Below are positions 1,379 to 51,889 of a stretch of DNA of 64,000 nucleotides, one piece after another. How positions within the stretch are numbered: the first letter of the stretch is position 1; every line of letters begins with the position of its first letter. The stretch comes from Armatimonadetes bacterium Uphvl-Ar1. Lineage in GTDB: Bacteria > Armatimonadota > Fimbriimonadia > Fimbriimonadales > Fimbriimonadaceae. A model generated the notes under the pieces. That model made no database searches and was not told the DNA's origin. It saw nothing but the letters and a program-made list of their open reading frames with translations. Position numbers and translations under genes: made by a program. The stretch lies in assembly GCA_002162075.1 (NCBI GenBank), contig CP021423.1:992001-1056000 (forward strand), given 5' to 3'.

Positions 1379-1384
1379 AGTGTA
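1379..1384 (-). promoter_or_regulatory. -10-like box (TACACT) placed for a leaderless transcript
   Basis: TACACT ends 6 bases before the lipoprotein ATG. With a normal -10 to start-site distance, transcription would begin at or next to the A of the ATG. No good -35 hexamer is visible at the expected distance. It belongs to a set of similarly placed boxes in this window. Confidence 0.35.
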
Positions 1385-4659: not shown

Positions 4660-4686
4660 CGTATAGGCCATAGTGATACGTTTCAA
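4660..4686 (-). promoter_or_regulatory. Candidate clpB promoter
   Basis: On the minus strand TTGAAA (4686-4681) is followed after 15 bases by TATACG (4665-4660), about 25 bases before the clpB ATG. The CTTGAAA element also resembles the -35 of heat-shock sigma factors, but the -10 lacks the C-rich part of that consensus. The short spacer lowers confidence. Confidence 0.3.
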
Positions 4687-4802
4687 GTTTGGGACTAAAT
4701 TTTGGGGGAATTTTGGCATGGGTACAGGAATTGGCGGTTGATCTGCCGACGTTAAATGATGAGTACCGGGCTCGAAGAGTGCGGCGGTACACTGGGACTC
4801 AG

Positions 4803-17247: not shown

Positions 17248-17308
17248 TTGAATCTGCGAGTTTACAGTTTGGTGGGGTGGGGGCTTGGGGACGGCGGGTT
17301 GGTACGAC

Positions 17309-18839: not shown

Positions 18840-18845
18840 ATTCTA
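18840..18845 (-). promoter_or_regulatory. -10-like box (TAGAAT) 6 bases before the cyclophilin ATG
   Basis: TAGAAT is separated from the ATG by exactly 6 bases (CGAACT). Transcription would start at the ATG, giving a leaderless message. No convincing -35 was found. Confidence 0.4.
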
Positions 18846-18888
18846 CTTGATGGATTGGATTATAGGTCTTGTGTAAGTTCTGCCGAAT

Positions 18889-24887: not shown

Positions 24888-24893
24888 TAGGAT
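24888..24893 (+). promoter_or_regulatory. -10-like box (TAGGAT) 6 bases before the next ATG
   Basis: TAGGAT ends 6 bases before the ATG at 24900. The same bases include AGGA at a spacing usable as a ribosome site, so this case is ambiguous between a -10 box and a Shine-Dalgarno. Confidence 0.25.
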
Positions 24894-24899
24894 TTAATC

Positions 24900-25613
24900 A
24901 TGAAGCGGATTTTGACAATTGGAGTGATGGTTGCGAGCATGGGGATCGCGGTGGCTCAGTCGTTCGAGTCGCAGATTTCAGATTTGAGCTTGTTGCAGAA
25001 CAAAGAGGTTCAGAACGAGTTGGGGATCAGTGAAGCCACTCGGGACAAGATGAATAAATTCGCCGAGGATTTTAATCGCCGTGCGAATGGTGCGCAAGAG
25101 GAATTTCGAAAGAAGAATCCTTCGGCGCAGCAGCCATCCCAAGGATTGATTGATCAACTTGCCAAGTTTGAATCGGATTTGAAGAAGAATATTTTTGGGT
25201 TATTGAACCAAAAGCAGATGAAGCGGCTTTCGGAATTGACCCTGCAGGCTGCAGGATATCCGGCGATGATGAATGACATTGTCGCGAAGAAGATTGGACT
25301 GAATGCGGCTCAGCTCAAAAAGCTACGAGACGAATTCCAGAAAATGGGAACGGAAGTCCAGCGATTGCAACAGGGTGCGATGAAGCCGATTTACGACAAG
25401 TACGGTAACGAAAAGCCAGAAAACGAAGAGGCAGCCAAGGCTCTCCAAGCCAAGGTTGAGGGAGAAGCTCAGGCGGCGATGGCTAAGATTCAGCCTCAGC
25501 TTGATAAAATGCGGGATGGTTGGTTGGCGGTAGTGAAGAAAACGGTCAAAGCAATTCAAATGAATCGCTTTGAAGCGTTGCAAGGCAAGCCGTTCAAACC
25601 TTCTGGTCAGTAA
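24900..25613 (+). CDS. Secreted helical protein, Spy/LTxxQ-like
   Basis: 237 residues. A signal peptide (1-19, cleavage after VAQS-like AQ) is followed by an almost entirely helical, Lys/Gln/Glu-rich chain. Repeated LLNQKQMKRLSELTLQ and LNAAQLKKLRDEF segments resemble the LTxxQ pattern of Spy/CpxP periplasmic chaperones. By analogy it may bind unfolded proteins or metal in the periplasm, but this is inference. It lies just after dnaE and overlaps the 3' end of the convergent GH130 gene by 7 bases. Confidence 0.75.
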   Translation: MKRILTIGVMVASMGIAVAQSFESQISDLSLLQNKEVQNELGISEATRDKMNKFAEDFNRRANGAQEEFRKKNPSAQQPSQGLIDQLAKFESDLKKNIFGLLNQKQMKRLSELTLQAAGYPAMMNDIVAKKIGLNAAQLKKLRDEFQKMGTEVQRLQQGAMKPIYDKYGNEKPENEEAAKALQAKVEGEAQAAMAKIQPQLDKMRDGWLAVVKKTVKAIQMNRFEALQGKPFKPSGQ

Positions 25614-26611
25614 GGTGGTTCGTCAGTTCCTTGTTCTGCGATTTGACCTGCAACGCCAGTGAGTTGATTGCCTTCTTGGTTTAACCAATTCAGCATTTGT
25701 CTAATACTGGCGGTTGCCAGGCAGATGCTCGAGTCAGCTGCTCCATAGTAAAAGTTGATTCCATCTTGGTCGTCGTCGACGGTATAGCCACAGGGGAAAA
25801 CAGCAGATCCGACGTCTCCGACGAGTTCATAAGGCTCTTCTGGTCCAAACATCCATGCGTTTCCGCGCTTGAGGCATAGTTCGGGATGTTTGAGGTCGAA
25901 GAGTGCGAGTCCCAATCGGTAGATTGAACCAGAAGCGTGGCGTCTCACTCCGTGGTACATGACCAGCCACCCTTCCTCTGTTTCAATGGGTGGAGGTGAA
26001 AGTCCGATTTTTCTTGCGTCCCACCATGCGCCTCTTCGGGCGGGGAGGAAGAGCATTGTTCGACCCCAGTTGTGGAGATCGGGCGAGAACGAAATCCACA
26101 TGTGCGCCGATGTTTCGGTTGAAGGGCGGTGGATGAGCGCATATTCGCCATTAAAGCGTCGTGGGAAAATTGCGGCATCTTTATCATCAGCATGCATCAC
26201 AAGTCCGTAGCGTTGGAAATGGATGAAATCCGTTGTTGATGCAATTGCCACCCCTGGCCCAGATTTGCCGAATGCCGTGTATGCGACGAGATATTCCTGG
26301 ATATCTGGCATATAAGTTATGCGCGGGTCTTCGATACCCCAGACTTCTTCAGGGTAGTTGATTGGGTCTGGTGCAAAAGTTGGTTCAGAGTCGATGATCC
26401 AGTTGTCAATCCCATTCTTTGATCGGGCGGCGCAAAGGTGAGAAATGCCACGGCGGTCTTCTGCTCGGCAAAGGAGGAGGGTTGTTCCGTCCTTGAGTCG
26501 GGTCGCACCCGGATTGAATACAGTGTGGATTGGGTACGGCCAATCTTTGGCAGTGAGGATGGGATTGTTCGGGTGTCTATGAAGCAGTACTTCATATTCG
26601 CTTGCTCTCAT
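25607..26611 (-). CDS. GH130 family glycoside phosphorylase-like protein
   Basis: 334 residues, a five-bladed beta-propeller of the GH130 type. Key elements are FNPGATRLKDGTTLLLCRAE, WGIEDPRITY (catalytic Asp of the family), KDAAIFPRR (phosphate region) and MYHGVR. GH130 enzymes phosphorolyse beta-mannosides such as Man-Glc or Man-GlcNAc linkages. It has no signal peptide, so it is cytoplasmic. Its start overlaps the stop of the upstream GT4 gene by 4 bases, so the two are coupled and probably work on the same mannose-containing glycan. Confidence 0.9.
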   Translation of the reverse strand: MRASEYEVLLHRHPNNPILTAKDWPYPIHTVFNPGATRLKDGTTLLLCRAEDRRGISHLCAARSKNGIDNWIIDSEPTFAPDPINYPEEVWGIEDPRITYMPDIQEYLVAYTAFGKSGPGVAIASTTDFIHFQRYGLVMHADDKDAAIFPRRFNGEYALIHRPSTETSAHMWISFSPDLHNWGRTMLFLPARRGAWWDARKIGLSPPPIETEEGWLVMYHGVRRHASGSIYRLGLALFDLKHPELCLKRGNAWMFGPEEPYELVGDVGSAVFPCGYTVDDDQDGINFYYGAADSSICLATASIRQMLNWLNQEGNQLTGVAGQIAEQGTDEPPY

Positions 26612-28905
26612 TTGCTCACCAAAGCAAGGATTTTTCGTGTAACGGGGAATACTGCAGAACGCATTTCGGTGAGGGCGGTTAGGAATGACAAGGTTGATTC
26701 AGCTCCTTGATTTTCGTTTGCACGGTTAGGATGGAGTCCATCCCGGCAGCCGCCGTTTGCTGGTTGATAGAGTGGAGTTTCTAGAATATTTCCTCCAAGG
26801 AACCAGCGGAACGCCCGATGGGCTTCTGAGAGCCAGACCGAGTTCTCAGTCACTTCCCACGCGTACAGGTAGGCGGAAACTGATGCCGCGGCTTCAATTG
26901 GCTGTTGGTCAAAAAGTTGTAATTCTTTGCTGTGGAGAGCGTAGCTTGATGTTCCTACGGGAGAAAAGTTGCCGGACTTATCCGTCTGGATCAATCTGAG
27001 CCAATCAAGTGATTCTATTCCGGCATTGAGTAGTTCTTCATCCATATTAATGTGGCCCGAGACAATCATTGCTTGTGAGAGTCGAGCATTTGCGTAACTG
27101 AGTGAGTCTTCAAACCAATGCCAATCGCTTGTCTTTGTGACTTTATATAGATTCAACAGTCTTGTTGACATTCTGGAAACGAATTGGCGAACATTGAGGT
27201 CGTGCGGATATGTCCGCAGATATTTTTCTCCACCTAGAATTCCGTAGGCCCAGGCTCTTGGGCTTGAAAACGAATCGAAGGCAGGGAGTGCATCTTTGAA
27301 GAGTGTTTGGGCCACTTCTCGGCGGGCAAGGCACCGGCCGTGGTGAAAGAGGGTGCCTAGAGCCCAAACTGTTCGAGCATGGGAGTCTTCGGAGCCTTCT
27401 TGTTCTAGCCAATTCCGATCGTAGCTCATGAAATTTCTGAACCTATTTCCATCAGAGTTAAATGCATGAAGGATGAAGGCTAAGTATCGGCTTTGGAGGT
27501 GGTTTAGCTTTTCGGGTAGTTCTGATTCCGCTTCCAGGATAGCCGTGAGTATCAGGGCCCGAGCATTGTCATCAACACAGTAGCCTTCTGCACGAAGTGG
27601 AGTTGAATGGTGAGCATGTTGAATCATTCCGCAGTCATCGGTCATTTCTTCCAGGTGAAACAAATTCAGTTCGGGTAATTGATGAATGTCTATTGGGCGA
27701 GCATTCTCAGACTGGGTGAGTAGGGAATCTTGAAAGAGGTCGACGGCAAGGTGGAGCGATTCTCGATATTGCCTGCCAATCGAGGGCCAAGACATCGTTT
27801 TGCCGAAGTCAGCGGCGCGCTGTTCCATTCTCAGTTTGTCAGAGGGATTGGATTGAATTTTCACGATTGCTTCAGCGATGCTCAGAGCATCTCGGAAAGG
27901 TACGAGTACGCCTCGTCCTTCGTCGAGGAGTTCTTCGGCATACCAGTAGGGGGTGGAGACAATCGCTTTTCCAGCCCCAACCGCGTAGGCCAAGGTTCCG
28001 GAGGTGATTTGATTTGCTTTGAGATAGGGTGTTACGTAGATATCAGCCGCTTTCAGGTAGCCGACGATTGAATCAAGCGGTACAAATTCATCTATAAAAA
28101 TAATGTTGTCTTGAATTCCTAACTTGACGGATTGTGAAATGAGGCTCTGCCTGTATTCTTCGCCATGGTTATTGAGAATGTCAGGGTGGGTTGCGCCGAC
28201 GATGGCATATTTGGCACCAGGGAATACTTCGAGAATAGCCGGGAACGCTTCTATGACGTATTCAATGCCCTTGTCGGGTGACAACAGTCCAAATGTAAGA
28301 ACTAATGGAGCCTCGGGGGGAGTATTCAGGCGATAGTCTGCACCCGAATGCGGGGGAAGGCTCGGCGTTCCGTGGGGAATGAGGTCAATTTTGGAGCGAT
28401 CAATTCCATGGACGGTTTCAAGAATGTCAATTGCTCGCTCGCTCATGACAATGATTCGTTGGGATCGATCAAGGATGGCTTCTAGAACGAGTTTTTGGGT
28501 GAGTGATGGATCGTCTAAGACAGTGTGGAGGGTTGTGACAACCGGGGTTGTGATGTTCCAGATGAGGTCAAGGAGGAAAGAACCGGCAATTCCGCCAAAG
28601 ATTCCATATTCATGTTGAATGAGAACCGTGCCGTAATCTTGGGAGTTAATGAGTGAAGCGGCTTCCAGATAGTCTGCCTGGCAGTTTTTTTGGATGATAC
28701 AGCGAACTGATTCTGGGTAATTGGATTCGGATTGTGTACTCAGAGCGTAGATATCAACTTCGGCTTCCTGACCTGTTGATCGAATCGCACTTGCGATATC
28801 CGATGTAAATGTTGCGATGCCGCACTTAGTTGGAGGGAAGGTGCCTATAACCGCAACTTTTAGGGATTCATTTGATGAATGTAGCTTTGTTTTGAAAATA
28901 TCCAT
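26608..28905 (-). CDS. GT4 glycosyltransferase fused to a helical (alpha/alpha)-like domain
   Basis: 765 residues. The first ~400 form a GT-B glycosyltransferase of family 4: VAVIGTFPPTKCGIATFTSD at the start, HEYGIFGG, LTFGLLSPDKGIEYVIEAFP, and the C-terminal nucleotide-sugar site with VPFRDALSIAEAI. Residues ~430-765 are helical with motifs typical of alpha-toroid carbohydrate proteins (AEGYCVDDNARALILTAILE, SYANARLSQAMI, CRDGLHPNRANENQGAESTL). It likely transfers mannose or another hexose from a nucleotide sugar. It is overlapped by the GH130 gene. A TATAAT box lies 5 bases before the ATG. Confidence 0.88.
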   Translation of the reverse strand: MDIFKTKLHSSNESLKVAVIGTFPPTKCGIATFTSDIASAIRSTGQEAEVDIYALSTQSESNYPESVRCIIQKNCQADYLEAASLINSQDYGTVLIQHEYGIFGGIAGSFLLDLIWNITTPVVTTLHTVLDDPSLTQKLVLEAILDRSQRIIVMSERAIDILETVHGIDRSKIDLIPHGTPSLPPHSGADYRLNTPPEAPLVLTFGLLSPDKGIEYVIEAFPAILEVFPGAKYAIVGATHPDILNNHGEEYRQSLISQSVKLGIQDNIIFIDEFVPLDSIVGYLKAADIYVTPYLKANQITSGTLAYAVGAGKAIVSTPYWYAEELLDEGRGVLVPFRDALSIAEAIVKIQSNPSDKLRMEQRAADFGKTMSWPSIGRQYRESLHLAVDLFQDSLLTQSENARPIDIHQLPELNLFHLEEMTDDCGMIQHAHHSTPLRAEGYCVDDNARALILTAILEAESELPEKLNHLQSRYLAFILHAFNSDGNRFRNFMSYDRNWLEQEGSEDSHARTVWALGTLFHHGRCLARREVAQTLFKDALPAFDSFSSPRAWAYGILGGEKYLRTYPHDLNVRQFVSRMSTRLLNLYKVTKTSDWHWFEDSLSYANARLSQAMIVSGHINMDEELLNAGIESLDWLRLIQTDKSGNFSPVGTSSYALHSKELQLFDQQPIEAAASVSAYLYAWEVTENSVWLSEAHRAFRWFLGGNILETPLYQPANGGCRDGLHPNRANENQGAESTLSFLTALTEMRSAVFPVTRKILALVSK

Positions 28906-28910
28906 AAGTC

Positions 28911-28940
28911 ATTATACTGCCGGACTACACCCCCTTTCAG
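28911..28940 (-). promoter_or_regulatory. Promoter of the GT4-GH130 operon, leaderless geometry
   Basis: On the minus strand CTGAAA (28940-28935) is followed after 18 bases by a consensus TATAAT (28916-28911), then 5 bases and the ATG. It is the best promoter match in the window and would start transcription at the start codon. Confidence 0.6.
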
Positions 28941-33399: not shown

Positions 33400-33405
33400 T
33401 AAGTT
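33400..33405 (+). promoter_or_regulatory. -10-like box (TAAGTT) 6 bases before trpA
   Basis: TAAGTT is followed by 6 bases (GAACGA) and the GTG start of trpA. No Shine-Dalgarno is present in between. This gives the same leaderless geometry as several other genes here; no -35 is recognisable. Confidence 0.35.
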
Positions 33406-33411
33406 GAACGA

Positions 33412-34200
33412 GTGAAGATTCAGGATCAATTTGCGGCTTTGCGAACCAAAGGAGAGAAGGGACTGGTGCTCTTTATCACTGCGGGTGATCCAAGCCTTGA
33501 GGCTTTGCCAGATATTGCGGAAGCTTTACAGGAGGCGGGAGCCGATATCTTAGAAATTGGGGTGCCATTCACAGATCCTATAGCGGATGGGCCAGTCATC
33601 CAGGCAAGTAGTCAGCGTGCTCTTGATCGCGGCGTGACACCCAGCCAAGTGATGGACACCGTTGGTGAACTTTCACTGGATATTCCTGTGGTTTTGATGG
33701 GCTACTTCAATCCGGCCCATCGAGTTGGATTATCTGAATATGCGCGGCTGATGGCGGCGGCAGGTGTGTCGGGTTCGATCATGTGCGATTTGATTCCGGA
33801 GGAAGCGGGGGAGTGGATTGAAGCATCGACAGCGGCGGAAGTGGATACTGTATTTTTGGCGGCTCCGACTTCGACGCTTGAGCGACAACGAGTCGTTTGC
33901 GAAGTCAGTACAGGTTTTGTTTATGCAGTTTCGCGGACTGGGGTGACGGGAGTCGGAGCCGAAGTTGCTCAATCAACAGAGGGATTGGTCACGTCATTGC
34001 GGGGCTTTACGGATGTCCCCATATGCGTTGGATTTGGGATTTCTCAGCCGGATCATGTTCGGTCGGTTTGTGAGTATGCAGATGGAGCGATTATTGGATC
34101 TTGGCTCGTCGACAGGTTGGCGAGGGATTGGGAAGATGCTGCTTCGCGGTCAGCATTGCTGAGGGAAGTCAAAGCGCTCAAGGAAGCAACAAAAGGCTGA
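33412..34200 (+). CDS. trpA: Tryptophan synthase alpha chain
   Basis: 262 residues, TIM barrel. It contains LFITAGDPS, the catalytic region EIGVPFTDPIADGPVIQ (Glu and Asp of the active site), LMGYFNP and VSRTGVTG, and the phosphate-binding VGFGIS. It splits indole-glycerol phosphate into indole and glyceraldehyde 3-phosphate, and normally pairs with TrpB, whose gene is not adjacent. GTG start. The stop overlaps the hisC ATG by one base (TGATG), linking tryptophan and histidine pathway genes. Confidence 0.96.
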   Translation: MKIQDQFAALRTKGEKGLVLFITAGDPSLEALPDIAEALQEAGADILEIGVPFTDPIADGPVIQASSQRALDRGVTPSQVMDTVGELSLDIPVVLMGYFNPAHRVGLSEYARLMAAAGVSGSIMCDLIPEEAGEWIEASTAAEVDTVFLAAPTSTLERQRVVCEVSTGFVYAVSRTGVTGVGAEVAQSTEGLVTSLRGFTDVPICVGFGISQPDHVRSVCEYADGAIIGSWLVDRLARDWEDAASRSALLREVKALKEATKG

Positions 34201-38411: not shown

Positions 38412-41097
<2,686 letters not shown>

Positions 41098-41103
41098 GGG
41101 GTT

Positions 41104-41109
41104 ATTTTA
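41104..41109 (-). promoter_or_regulatory. -10-like box (TAAAAT) 6 bases before leuS
   Basis: TAAAAT is followed by AACCCC and the ATG of leuS. No Shine-Dalgarno lies between them. It implies a leaderless leuS transcript starting inside the 3' end of the upstream gene. Confidence 0.4.
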
Positions 41110-43144
41110 GCCAAGGCGTGATCGGTGGTTTTGGGTTTGTTAGGATGTTGGCGGGGGATTCGATTTCCGCGTCTTTGCTCGTTGCCTCCGCGCCCTTGAT
41201 TGGGGTTGGATGCTCGCTGGACGTATTCGTTGGCGCGTTGATTTGTTTCTTGTTGGAGCTGCTCAGGGAGTTGGGCATAGGTGCCAAAGTTCTGAGCTGG
41301 TTCAGTTGCGCCAACCCTGCGGGTGAGTCGGGTGCCGTCAGGATATTGAATTTGAATCGTGACGCTGATAGTCTTGCTCATTCCGAATTGATTGAGCGTT
41401 CCGGCGATATCTGAGTAGCGGCTTCGGACTCCTCCGGAGAGTTGGGATGCACGAAGTGAGGCGAGGTCTCGCTCGGACATTGCGACTTGGGTTTTTCCAT
41501 CCTGAGTCCGGGCGATAATGGCGTCACGGGTCTGAGTTGTGACGGTAATCGTGCCTCCGTTTGGTGGTGTGTTGGCAAGCCATTCCGTGCGTTCTCCGCC
41601 GAATCCACGACCTCCACGCTCCATTTCTTGACCGCGTCGTTCGGTTGTTTCTGCAGCTTGAGCTTGGGCTTGGGCTTGCGGATTGACCTTTGACGGTGCC
41701 CCGGGAGAGTTAAACAGGAGCGGATTGACTACGGCTGGGCTCAGGGAGCTTGAAGGCAGTTGCACCACGGTTTGAGCGGTCGCGCGATTTCCGAGAGCGG
41801 CAAGGATTTGAAGGCCTTCGAGGCTGAGTCCGCTGAAGGTGGAGAGTTGCGAGGATGGGCTACCTCCGAGGATTTGGCGGGCGAGCGTGTTTTCCCATCC
41901 CGAAGTGCTAAACACTTCGTTGACCGAGTTGGCGTAGGCGAGTTGAGTCGCAAGACTGAGTACTCCGGTCTGTGCGATTTCGGAAGTGACCCGCCCAAGT
42001 GCAGCCCGGTTGCGCTGAGTAATCCAGGCGTGAGTGAGGAGTTGGGGCTTGATGACGACCCAACCGCCTTTCGATTCGGTGACAAGCCTCGCTTCGGGCA
42101 ATCCCTTTAACCCGGACGAAATCATGGCGTTGGCGAGCGGAATCATGGATTCATCGGGGACAAAAGCGACAAAGTTGGTTGATTTTGGCAAGCTCGCTTT
42201 CAGTGCTGGTGCAATGGCGAAGGCTACCGGTTCATTTTGTGCGGGATTCAAAAGAATCTGGCGCAAAGCTGAAGTGTAGGGATTTGCGGCAGGTGTAACT
42301 TGGCTGAATGCTTTCAACTTTGCGATGGCCTCTTCATCAAGAGGAACGGTGGCTGAAAGTTCGGATGCAGGAGTTGACCCGGTGATTCGGTATTGCTGAG
42401 CAGCGTTGAAACGCGGATTGCCTTCGGAGTCAATTCCTTGAGCGGAGACGGAGTACGAATTGAGTCCAGATCGATAGATTGAGACGATTCGTTTATTGAC
42501 AGGGGTTGCGATTTGATCTCGAAAGGCTTGGAATCGCGCTTTCCGCTCGGCGTTTTGCTCTTGATTGAGGCGTTGATCAATGCCAGCGAGCATGGCGGAT
42601 TGTTGGGCACTGACAATTGTGTTGACTGCGGTTGCGGCGGCATTAGGGAGCTGGAGTTGATTCGCATTCCGGCGATCTGCATAAACGACTCGTCCGCCGA
42701 TCACGATCCGACCGAGCTCAGCGGCAGGGAAAGCGAGAATGATTTGGTCAACAGAATTTGAGGAGTTTACGGGCGGATTCTCTTGCCAGGATTTCCAGAG
42801 ATTGGTCGAATATTCTAAATATGTTTGAAATGCTTTTTGTTCGATTTCGGGGGAGCGATCCAATCGGTATCCACCTTCGGCTTGGAACCAGGTGAGTCCC
42901 GTGGCGTTACCAATCTGGGTGAGTAGGTCGGTGGGCTGAACACCTTTGGCTTGGATAATGACCGAGAGGTTCTCGAACTGAGAATTGACGGTAAGTTTTA
43001 GTCCGGTCGCTTCGGAAAGGTCGGGAATGAGGTTTTTGAGACTTTTGCCGGGTGTCTCAAAGTCGAGGGGAAGGGCGAGCGCGGAGACGCCCAAAGTGAG
43101 AGTTCCGATGATCAGCCGGAATTGATTCATATGTGTATTAACGA

Positions 43145-44095
43145 ATGATGCGGGCCAATGTTCAGCGGGATTGGTATGATGTTTGGGTGGAGTGGATAGC
43201 AGAGAGTAAGGAAAGGCTTGATAAGTTTTTATGTCGCCAGTTTCCAGAAGTGAGTCGGGCAAAAGTTGCGGGGCACATTCAATCGGGCGGCGTGACGGTT
43301 GATGGGGTTGTGGAAGCGAAGGCGGGATTCCAGATTCGGGAAGGGTCAGTCATTGTTTCGGAACCGATTTCAGAAACCGCTCCGCACCCAATCGAACCTG
43401 TCGAAATGGACTTGGATGTTGTGTGGGAAGATTCTGATCTTCTTGTGGTCAATAAACCGAGGGGGCTTGCGGTGCATCCAGCAAATTCGATGACGGGAGC
43501 AACGTTGGTGAATGGTCTGCTGGCGCGGGGACACGGTTTGAGCGAATTGGGCGGTGGGTTCCGACCAGGGATTGTTCACCGCCTGGACAAAGAAACAACT
43601 GGACTGATTATTGTTGCAAAGAATGATCGGGCGCACGCGGGGTTGGGTGAGCAGATTCAACGTCGAGCGATCCAACGAAGGTATGTGGCGGTTATTCATG
43701 GTGATCTGCCAAATCCGCGATTTACGATTGATGCTCCGCTTGGGCGGAATCCTCGAAACCCACTGATGAGGGCGGTTGTGGCAGATGGAAAAGTGGCTCG
43801 GACGCATATCCAAGAACTGCGCCGGATGCCCGAAGGACTCCTCGTTTCGTGCCGATTGGAGTCGGGGAGAACCCACCAGATTCGGGTTCATATGGCGCAC
43901 TTTGGGTGGCCGGTGATTGGTGATGATCTTTATGCTCCGATCAAGCTCCGACCAGGGCCAATGCAACTCCATGCGGCGAGTTTGCAGTTTTCACATCCCA
44001 TCAAAGAAGAGTGGATTGAGCTGTTTGTGCAACCACCTACGGACTTTTTTGGGTGGGAGTCGGTGACCCAAGCGGAGGTTGATGGTTGGGAGTAG
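43145..44095 (+). CDS. rluD: RluA/RluD-family 23S rRNA pseudouridine synthase
   Basis: 316 residues. An N-terminal S4 domain (ERLDKFLCRQFPEVSRAKVA) precedes the RluA catalytic domain with GIVHRLDKETTGLIIVAKND (catalytic Asp), RRYVAVIHG and SGRTHQIRVHMA. It isomerises uridines in large-subunit rRNA; the exact target is by analogy to RluD. The N-terminal ~14 residues before the S4 domain are atypical, so a GTG near 43187 may be the true start. It overlaps radC by 10 bases and is divergent from the STN-domain gene. Confidence 0.92.
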   Translation: MMRANVQRDWYDVWVEWIAESKERLDKFLCRQFPEVSRAKVAGHIQSGGVTVDGVVEAKAGFQIREGSVIVSEPISETAPHPIEPVEMDLDVVWEDSDLLVVNKPRGLAVHPANSMTGATLVNGLLARGHGLSELGGGFRPGIVHRLDKETTGLIIVAKNDRAHAGLGEQIQRRAIQRRYVAVIHGDLPNPRFTIDAPLGRNPRNPLMRAVVADGKVARTHIQELRRMPEGLLVSCRLESGRTHQIRVHMAHFGWPVIGDDLYAPIKLRPGPMQLHAASLQFSHPIKEEWIELFVQPPTDFFGWESVTQAEVDGWE

Positions 44096-48637: not shown

Positions 48638-49120
48638 CTAGTCGCCGATGATCTGCTTGAATTCTGGCCGGTTGATGTACTCGCGGAGGTCTTCGTCGTT
48701 CTGCGCGAATGCTTCGACGGGGAAGCCGAGATCTTTTGAGATTTGGATTTGTTCAAAGACGCCCTTGTCGTAGCCTTGGAGGGCATACCCGCAGGCAAGA
48801 TTGTAGTGGATGATGCTGGGTTCGTGGCCAAAGTTTTTTGAATTCAGGAAGCTTCGGCGGGCGGCGTCGAATTCACCAAGGTAGTGTTGTGAGAGGCCGA
48901 GGTAGAACCATCCGTCCGGGTCTTCGGGGTCTTCGCTGAGGATTTCGAGATTCTTCTCTTTGGAAAGCTCCCATTCTTTGTTGCTGAAGGCGTCTTGGGC
49001 GATGACACGAACTTCTTCGGATTGGTTTTGGATGACCTTGGTATGGGTGGCCCAGGCCACGGCGCATCCGGCGGCGAGGATTGAGATCAATGAGACAAAC
49101 CATCCGAGTTTGAGAATCAT
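48638..49120 (-). CDS. Membrane-anchored TPR protein
   Basis: 160 residues. An N-terminal hydrophobic segment (residues 4-24; a Cys at 19 could be a lipobox in AAGC) is followed by TPR-like helices (PDGWFYLGLSQHYLGEFDAA, IHYNLACGYALQGYDKGVFE). TPR repeats mediate protein contacts; the partner is unknown. A TAAAGT box lies 8 bases before the ATG; AAGGAG lies too far upstream to act as the ribosome site. Confidence 0.75.
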   Translation of the reverse strand: MILKLGWFVSLISILAAGCAVAWATHTKVIQNQSEEVRVIAQDAFSNKEWELSKEKNLEILSEDPEDPDGWFYLGLSQHYLGEFDAARRSFLNSKNFGHEPSIIHYNLACGYALQGYDKGVFEQIQISKDLGFPVEAFAQNDEDLREYINRPEFKQIIGD

Positions 49121-49151
49121 CTTTGGTTACTTTACTCCTTGATAGAACGTT

Positions 49152-51808: not shown

Positions 51809-51889
51809 ATGACTATTGTGCCGGAGAGCCGGGTGGGAATTCCGGTTTATCCCCAGGACATCTGAATTTTCAAGATAAAATGAAAATTG

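Follow-up and report, generated by a model that had tools for sequence, protein, structure and literature searches.

Putative -10 boxes abut predicted start codons in the window

The window analysed here is a stretch of 64,000 nucleotides (bases 992001-1056000) from the complete 2,985,450-base genome of Armatimonadetes bacterium Uphvl-Ar1, which has a GC content of 52%. It carries a set of genes whose predicted start codons closely follow a TANNNT hexamer, among them genes for a GT4 glycosyltransferase, a cyclophilin, the tryptophan synthase alpha chain and leucyl-tRNA synthetase (Table 1). A preliminary description of this DNA had listed eight such boxes with their offsets, all of which proved exact on re-reading the sequence. 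Its treatment of the listed starts as first genes may not hold throughout, as the previous gene ends only 18 bases before 24900, whose first-gene status is not clear. It had also overlooked a confounder: four of the five boxes it named at gap 6 begin with TAA or TAG, an in-frame stop in that register.

Table 1. Putative -10 boxes near predicted start codons in the window; the gap is the number of bases between the last T of TANNNT and the start codon.
Box	Position	Strand	Gap	Start	Gene or remark
-10 box TACACT	1379..1384	-	6	ATG 1372	Lipoprotein gene
Box TACGTT	4677..4682	+	6	TTG 4689	Beyond the preliminary list; PWM score low
Further candidate TAAACT	17259..17264	-	11	ATG 17247	PWM score 5.7
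-10 box TAGAAT	18840..18845	-	6	ATG 18833	Cyclophilin-type peptidyl-prolyl isomerase
Further candidate TAAGTT	18874..18879	+	9	ATG 18889	Predicted leader of 2-3 bases
-10 box TAGGAT	24888..24893	+	6	ATG 24900	
-10 box TATAAT	28911..28916	-	5	ATG 28905	GT4 glycosyltransferase gene, 26608-28905
-10 box TAAGTT	33400..33405	+	6	GTG 33412	Tryptophan synthase alpha chain (trpA)
-10 box TAAAAT	41104..41109	-	6	ATG 41097	Leucyl-tRNA synthetase (leuS)
-10-like box TAAAGT	49129..49134	-	8	ATG 49120	Weaker case
-10 box TAAAAT	51876..51881	+	8	ATG 51890	Menaquinone biosynthesis family

Several of these loci could be compared with the relative G006 (MAG BC.035, about 90% DNA identity). The box and gap of the GT4 gene are unchanged there while the spacer reads gattt instead of gactt, and the boxes are likewise preserved beside altered spacers at the cyclophilin gene, at 24900 (ttaatc to ttgatc), at trpA (gaacga to ggatga) and at 4689, where the TTG start is preserved as well. 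A blastn search with the 1372 locus against the sampled G006 stretches gave no match. The lipoprotein gene starting at 1372 continues past the left edge of the window and no listed ORF supports its start; translation from this position reads MRSRTQARSLFAAALLTTAFLVACGGS, a lipobox signal peptide.

Two loci have further features. The trpA gene (33412-34200) appears to open its transcription unit, starting at GTG behind a promoter of the putative leaderless type, and the gene before it lies on the other strand, leaving no trpB directly upstream. The interval from leuS to the gene at 43145 holds about 2 kb (41098-43144) in which the coding model finds no gene, although a 783-aa TTG ORF is open at 40911-43262 on the minus strand; the stretch is either a missed gene of unusual composition or non-coding.

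TANNNT peaks 6 and 7 bases before the starts of first genes

To count the motif by offset, we sampled forty 20-kb stretches across the genome together with the window (864 kb of 2.99 Mb) and called genes with a home-made caller based on a dicodon model. Starts were picked by coding score and start-codon type alone; as this choice ignores upstream sequence, it does not bias an upstream motif count, and start codons in all counts are predicted ones. Genes counted as first (n = 429) if their neighbour was divergent or the previous gene lay 60 bases or more away, and as operon-internal (n = 199) if it lay less than 20 bases away.

Among the 429 first genes, TANNNT stood at gap 6 in 40 cases and at gap 7 in 26, against a chance level of about 3-5 per offset and counts of 3-8 at most offsets from 13 to 25. 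Over gaps 6-9 the total was 85 versus 21 expected (P = 2e-21). Control ATGs, scaled to the same number, gave 2-4 (internal in-frame) and 3-4 (intergenic) at gaps 6 and 7. The preliminary description had reported five boxes at offset 6 among roughly 35 first genes; at p = 1/64 this gives P = 2e-4, but the offset had been picked post hoc, and it is the independent sample (40/429 and 26/429) that confirms the excess. An unseeded de novo EM motif search recovered GTAnAAT at offsets 6 and 7 with a likelihood of 166.8, compared with at most 124.5 in shuffles.

The arrangement could in principle be chance, or in-frame stops (TAA or TAG 12 bases before the start) caught by ORF calling, as the predominance of TAA and TAG among the gap-6 boxes first noticed might suggest. 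However, TA[CT]NNT, in which no in-frame stop is possible, also peaks at gap 6 (14 versus about 2 per offset), gap 7 peaks as well despite being out of frame, and the in-frame gaps 3 and 12 have no comparable peak. The peak also holds under the longest-ORF and ATG-only start rules. E. coli and genomes of other families in the phylum yield nothing in the same pipeline, and the conservation pattern in G006 described below again speaks against this explanation, which we regard as refuted here.

The signal is concentrated in first genes: TANNNT stands at gap 6 in 9.3% of first genes versus 3% of internal ones, and the 14 TA[CT]NNT cases in first genes compare with none in internal genes (0/199 at gaps 6-7). 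Operon-internal genes do carry some excess over gaps 6-9 (15 versus 3.6), only 5 of which are upstream stop codons; the remainder may be first genes close to a neighbour, as at 24900. First genes also show a smaller cluster of boxes at offsets 9-12, and in most gap-9 and gap-10 cases the seventh base after the box is a purine, which suggests leaders of only 2-5 bases.

Box-bearing genes largely lack a Shine-Dalgarno site

The preliminary description had stated that nearly all of its boxes lack a Shine-Dalgarno site. This holds in the sample, where an SD of at least 5 was found in 3 of the 40 gap-6 genes and 0 of the 26 gap-7 genes. At 49120 there is an AAGGAG, but 14 bases upstream of the start. 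Splitting the offset count by Shine-Dalgarno presence, a check proposed in the same description, gave a sharp peak at 6 and 7 that was weaker among genes with a good Shine-Dalgarno: TANNNT stood at gaps 5-11 in 10% of these versus 27% of genes without one, and the gap-6 box was present in 3 of 51 genes with an SD of at least 5. Shine-Dalgarno sites were commoner in operon-internal than in first genes (29% versus 12%), and the 16S rRNA retains a normal anti-Shine-Dalgarno, ACCTCCTTA. Loss of bS21 or IF3 was considered as a cause of the trait and rejected, as both are present in every relative searched.

The boxes resemble -10 elements with no -35 partner

Base preferences outside those used for selection were consistent with a -10 hexamer. 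A occupied base 4 in 63% of boxes versus 32%, A or C was preferred at base 5, and G directly preceded the box in 56% versus 24% (P = 3e-9). These preferences replicate in independent genomes of the order. Across the order, G directly precedes the hexamer in 56-59% of boxes, with a weaker preference for G at the next base upstream; this may form an extended -10 making up for the lack of a -35.

Searches for a -35 element were negative. TTGAC occurred upstream of at most 1 of 135 boxes at any spacer from 15 to 19, TTGA-TANNNT pairs in intergenic DNA stayed at the shuffled level without excess, EM upstream of the boxes found nothing but the adjoining G, and conservation in the -35 zone (0.885-0.90) was not higher than in its surroundings. 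The best reading of these sequence features is that the boxes are -10 promoter elements working without a TTGACA-type -35.

The hexamer is conserved beside a drifting spacer

In G006, the hexamers of 24 boxes at gaps 6-7 were identical at 142 of 144 positions (99%), whereas the spacers to the start matched at only 117 of 152 (77%; P = 2e-9 for motif versus spacer). Identity was 260/288 over the 12 bases upstream of these boxes and 91% in the coding start. Boxes at gaps 6-7 were retained in 23 of 24 cases, versus 43 of 56 for TANNNT elsewhere upstream, and first genes without a box had no hexamer/spacer contrast. A frozen hexamer next to a drifting spacer indicates selection on the box but not on the Shine-Dalgarno zone, which is the pattern expected of a leaderless gene.

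The signal extends across the order

We then ran one pipeline on all genomes in a range test, counting TANNNT at gaps 6-9 of first genes; EM on the small per-genome samples was unstable in several genomes, so pooled counts were used instead. The motif was in excess within the genus (30 versus 11.4 expected), in other genera of the family (28 versus 5.2) and in other families of the order (19 versus 6.6), as it was in the positive control of Deinococcus and Thermus plasmids (18 versus 4.1). In contrast, there was no excess in four genomes from other families of the phylum (4 versus 9.4) or in the E. coli negative control (3 versus 7.9). Within the genus, the more distant member G003 had a weak peak. 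Shine-Dalgarno use in first genes followed the opposite trend, at 12-24% in the order versus 35% in the other phylum members. The signal thus spans genus, family and order and is absent from the four sampled other-family genomes of the phylum, and its restriction to the class is provisional. A published table of anti-Shine-Dalgarno types gives a low figure for Fimbriimonadia (25, versus 70 for Chthonomonadetes; PMC10783764), which fits if the present genome belongs to Fimbriimonadia, as its 16S sequence and the family structure of the order suggest.

Interpretation and alternatives

Taken together, the offset peak, the -10 fine structure, the conservation pattern and the Deinococcota and E. 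coli controls give computational support to the earlier proposal that this lineage uses leaderless initiation widely, and we put the probability that leaderless mRNAs arise here from -35-less promoters at about 0.9. The housekeeping sigma factor would recognize a -10 box with a consensus of about G-TA-n-A-A/C-T, no TTGACA-type -35 being needed. Where the last T of the box is 6 or 7 bases from the start, transcription would begin on the first base of the ATG or GTG, making the mRNA leaderless and a Shine-Dalgarno unusable, and ribosomes would presumably recognize the start codon at the 5' end, as they do in Deinococcus and Mycobacterium; boxes at offsets 9-12 would yield leaders of 2-5 bases. 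Such box-adjacent promoters would serve roughly 20-35% of first genes (between one in five and one in three), both in this genome and in the order as a whole. The raw excess at gaps 6-12 corresponds to about 18% of first genes, and a mixture model gives a share of up to 37% (29-47%), an inflated value since shuffled data give 15%.

Two other accounts accept the motif as real. The boxes might be genuine promoters of genes that in many cases also have leadered upstream promoters or miscalled starts, the leaderless form being a minor or alternative transcript. That the start codons are predicted, that some boxes lie at 8-12 and that a few genes (3 of the 51 with an SD of at least 5, at gap 6) combine a box with a Shine-Dalgarno would all suit this account, but a peak at exactly 6 and 7 under three start rules would not, and the Shine-Dalgarno zone drifts faster than its surroundings, arguing against a leadered transcript that needs it; we consider it unlikely. 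Still less probable is that TANNNT acts in translation, like the AT-rich, non-Shine-Dalgarno ribosome-binding elements of Bacteroidetes. In other phyla, AT-rich stretches near -10 to -20 have been assigned to either role (PMC5397173), yet here the signal is concentrated in first genes with none of the 199 operon-internal genes carrying TA[CT]NNT at gaps 6-7, its base preferences fit a -10 box, and Deinococcus has the same geometry with a motif that was tested there as a promoter (PMC12340547).

The preferred reading, leaderless mRNAs from -35-less promoters, has well-established parallels. Both Deinococcus-Thermus and Actinobacteria are known to initiate many genes without a leader (PMC3160421; PMC12340547). 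In Deinococcus-Thermus, TANNNT likewise lies about 6-7 bases before the start, in about one-third of genes there, and a normal Shine-Dalgarno is retained (PMC12340547; PMC3160421); that group differs in belonging to another phylum, in its GC content above 60% (versus 52% here) and in the G before the box, present in 3 of 17 cases in a small Deinococcota sample versus 56-59% here. About a quarter of Mycobacterium tuberculosis genes are leaderless, and this species shares a dominant -10 TANNNT, the lack of a conserved -35 and the use of GTG as well as ATG starts (PMC3898074), but its leaderless genes were identified by transcription start mapping (PMC3898074) and those described here are predicted from sequence. 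GeneMarkS-2 predictions, cited in PMC9581028, put leaderless transcription in 21.6% of representative bacterial species, and its leaderless class similarly combines a promoter-like signal near first-gene starts with Shine-Dalgarno sites in other genes (PMC9581028). Our literature search found no description of leaderless genes for Armatimonadota, Fimbriimonadales, Fimbriimonas or Chthonomonas, and the GeneMarkS-2 species list, which lay outside this search, may already include members of this lineage. The system itself would be of a familiar kind, in a lineage where it is probably uncharacterized.

We tentatively propose, at slightly less than even odds, that a whole order (class) of an otherwise Shine-Dalgarno-reliant phylum went over to promoters lacking a -35 and to leaderless mRNAs on a wide scale, and did so independently of the Deinococcota and the Actinomycetota; if so, its sister classes would be available for studying how such a switch happens. 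In practical terms, tools that require a Shine-Dalgarno site would misplace gene starts in this lineage, and expression constructs intended for it should use a box-adjacent promoter and no leader. A probably uncharacterized lineage would join those in which leaderless initiation is widespread, and relatives in its own phylum that use Shine-Dalgarno sites would be at hand to compare it with.
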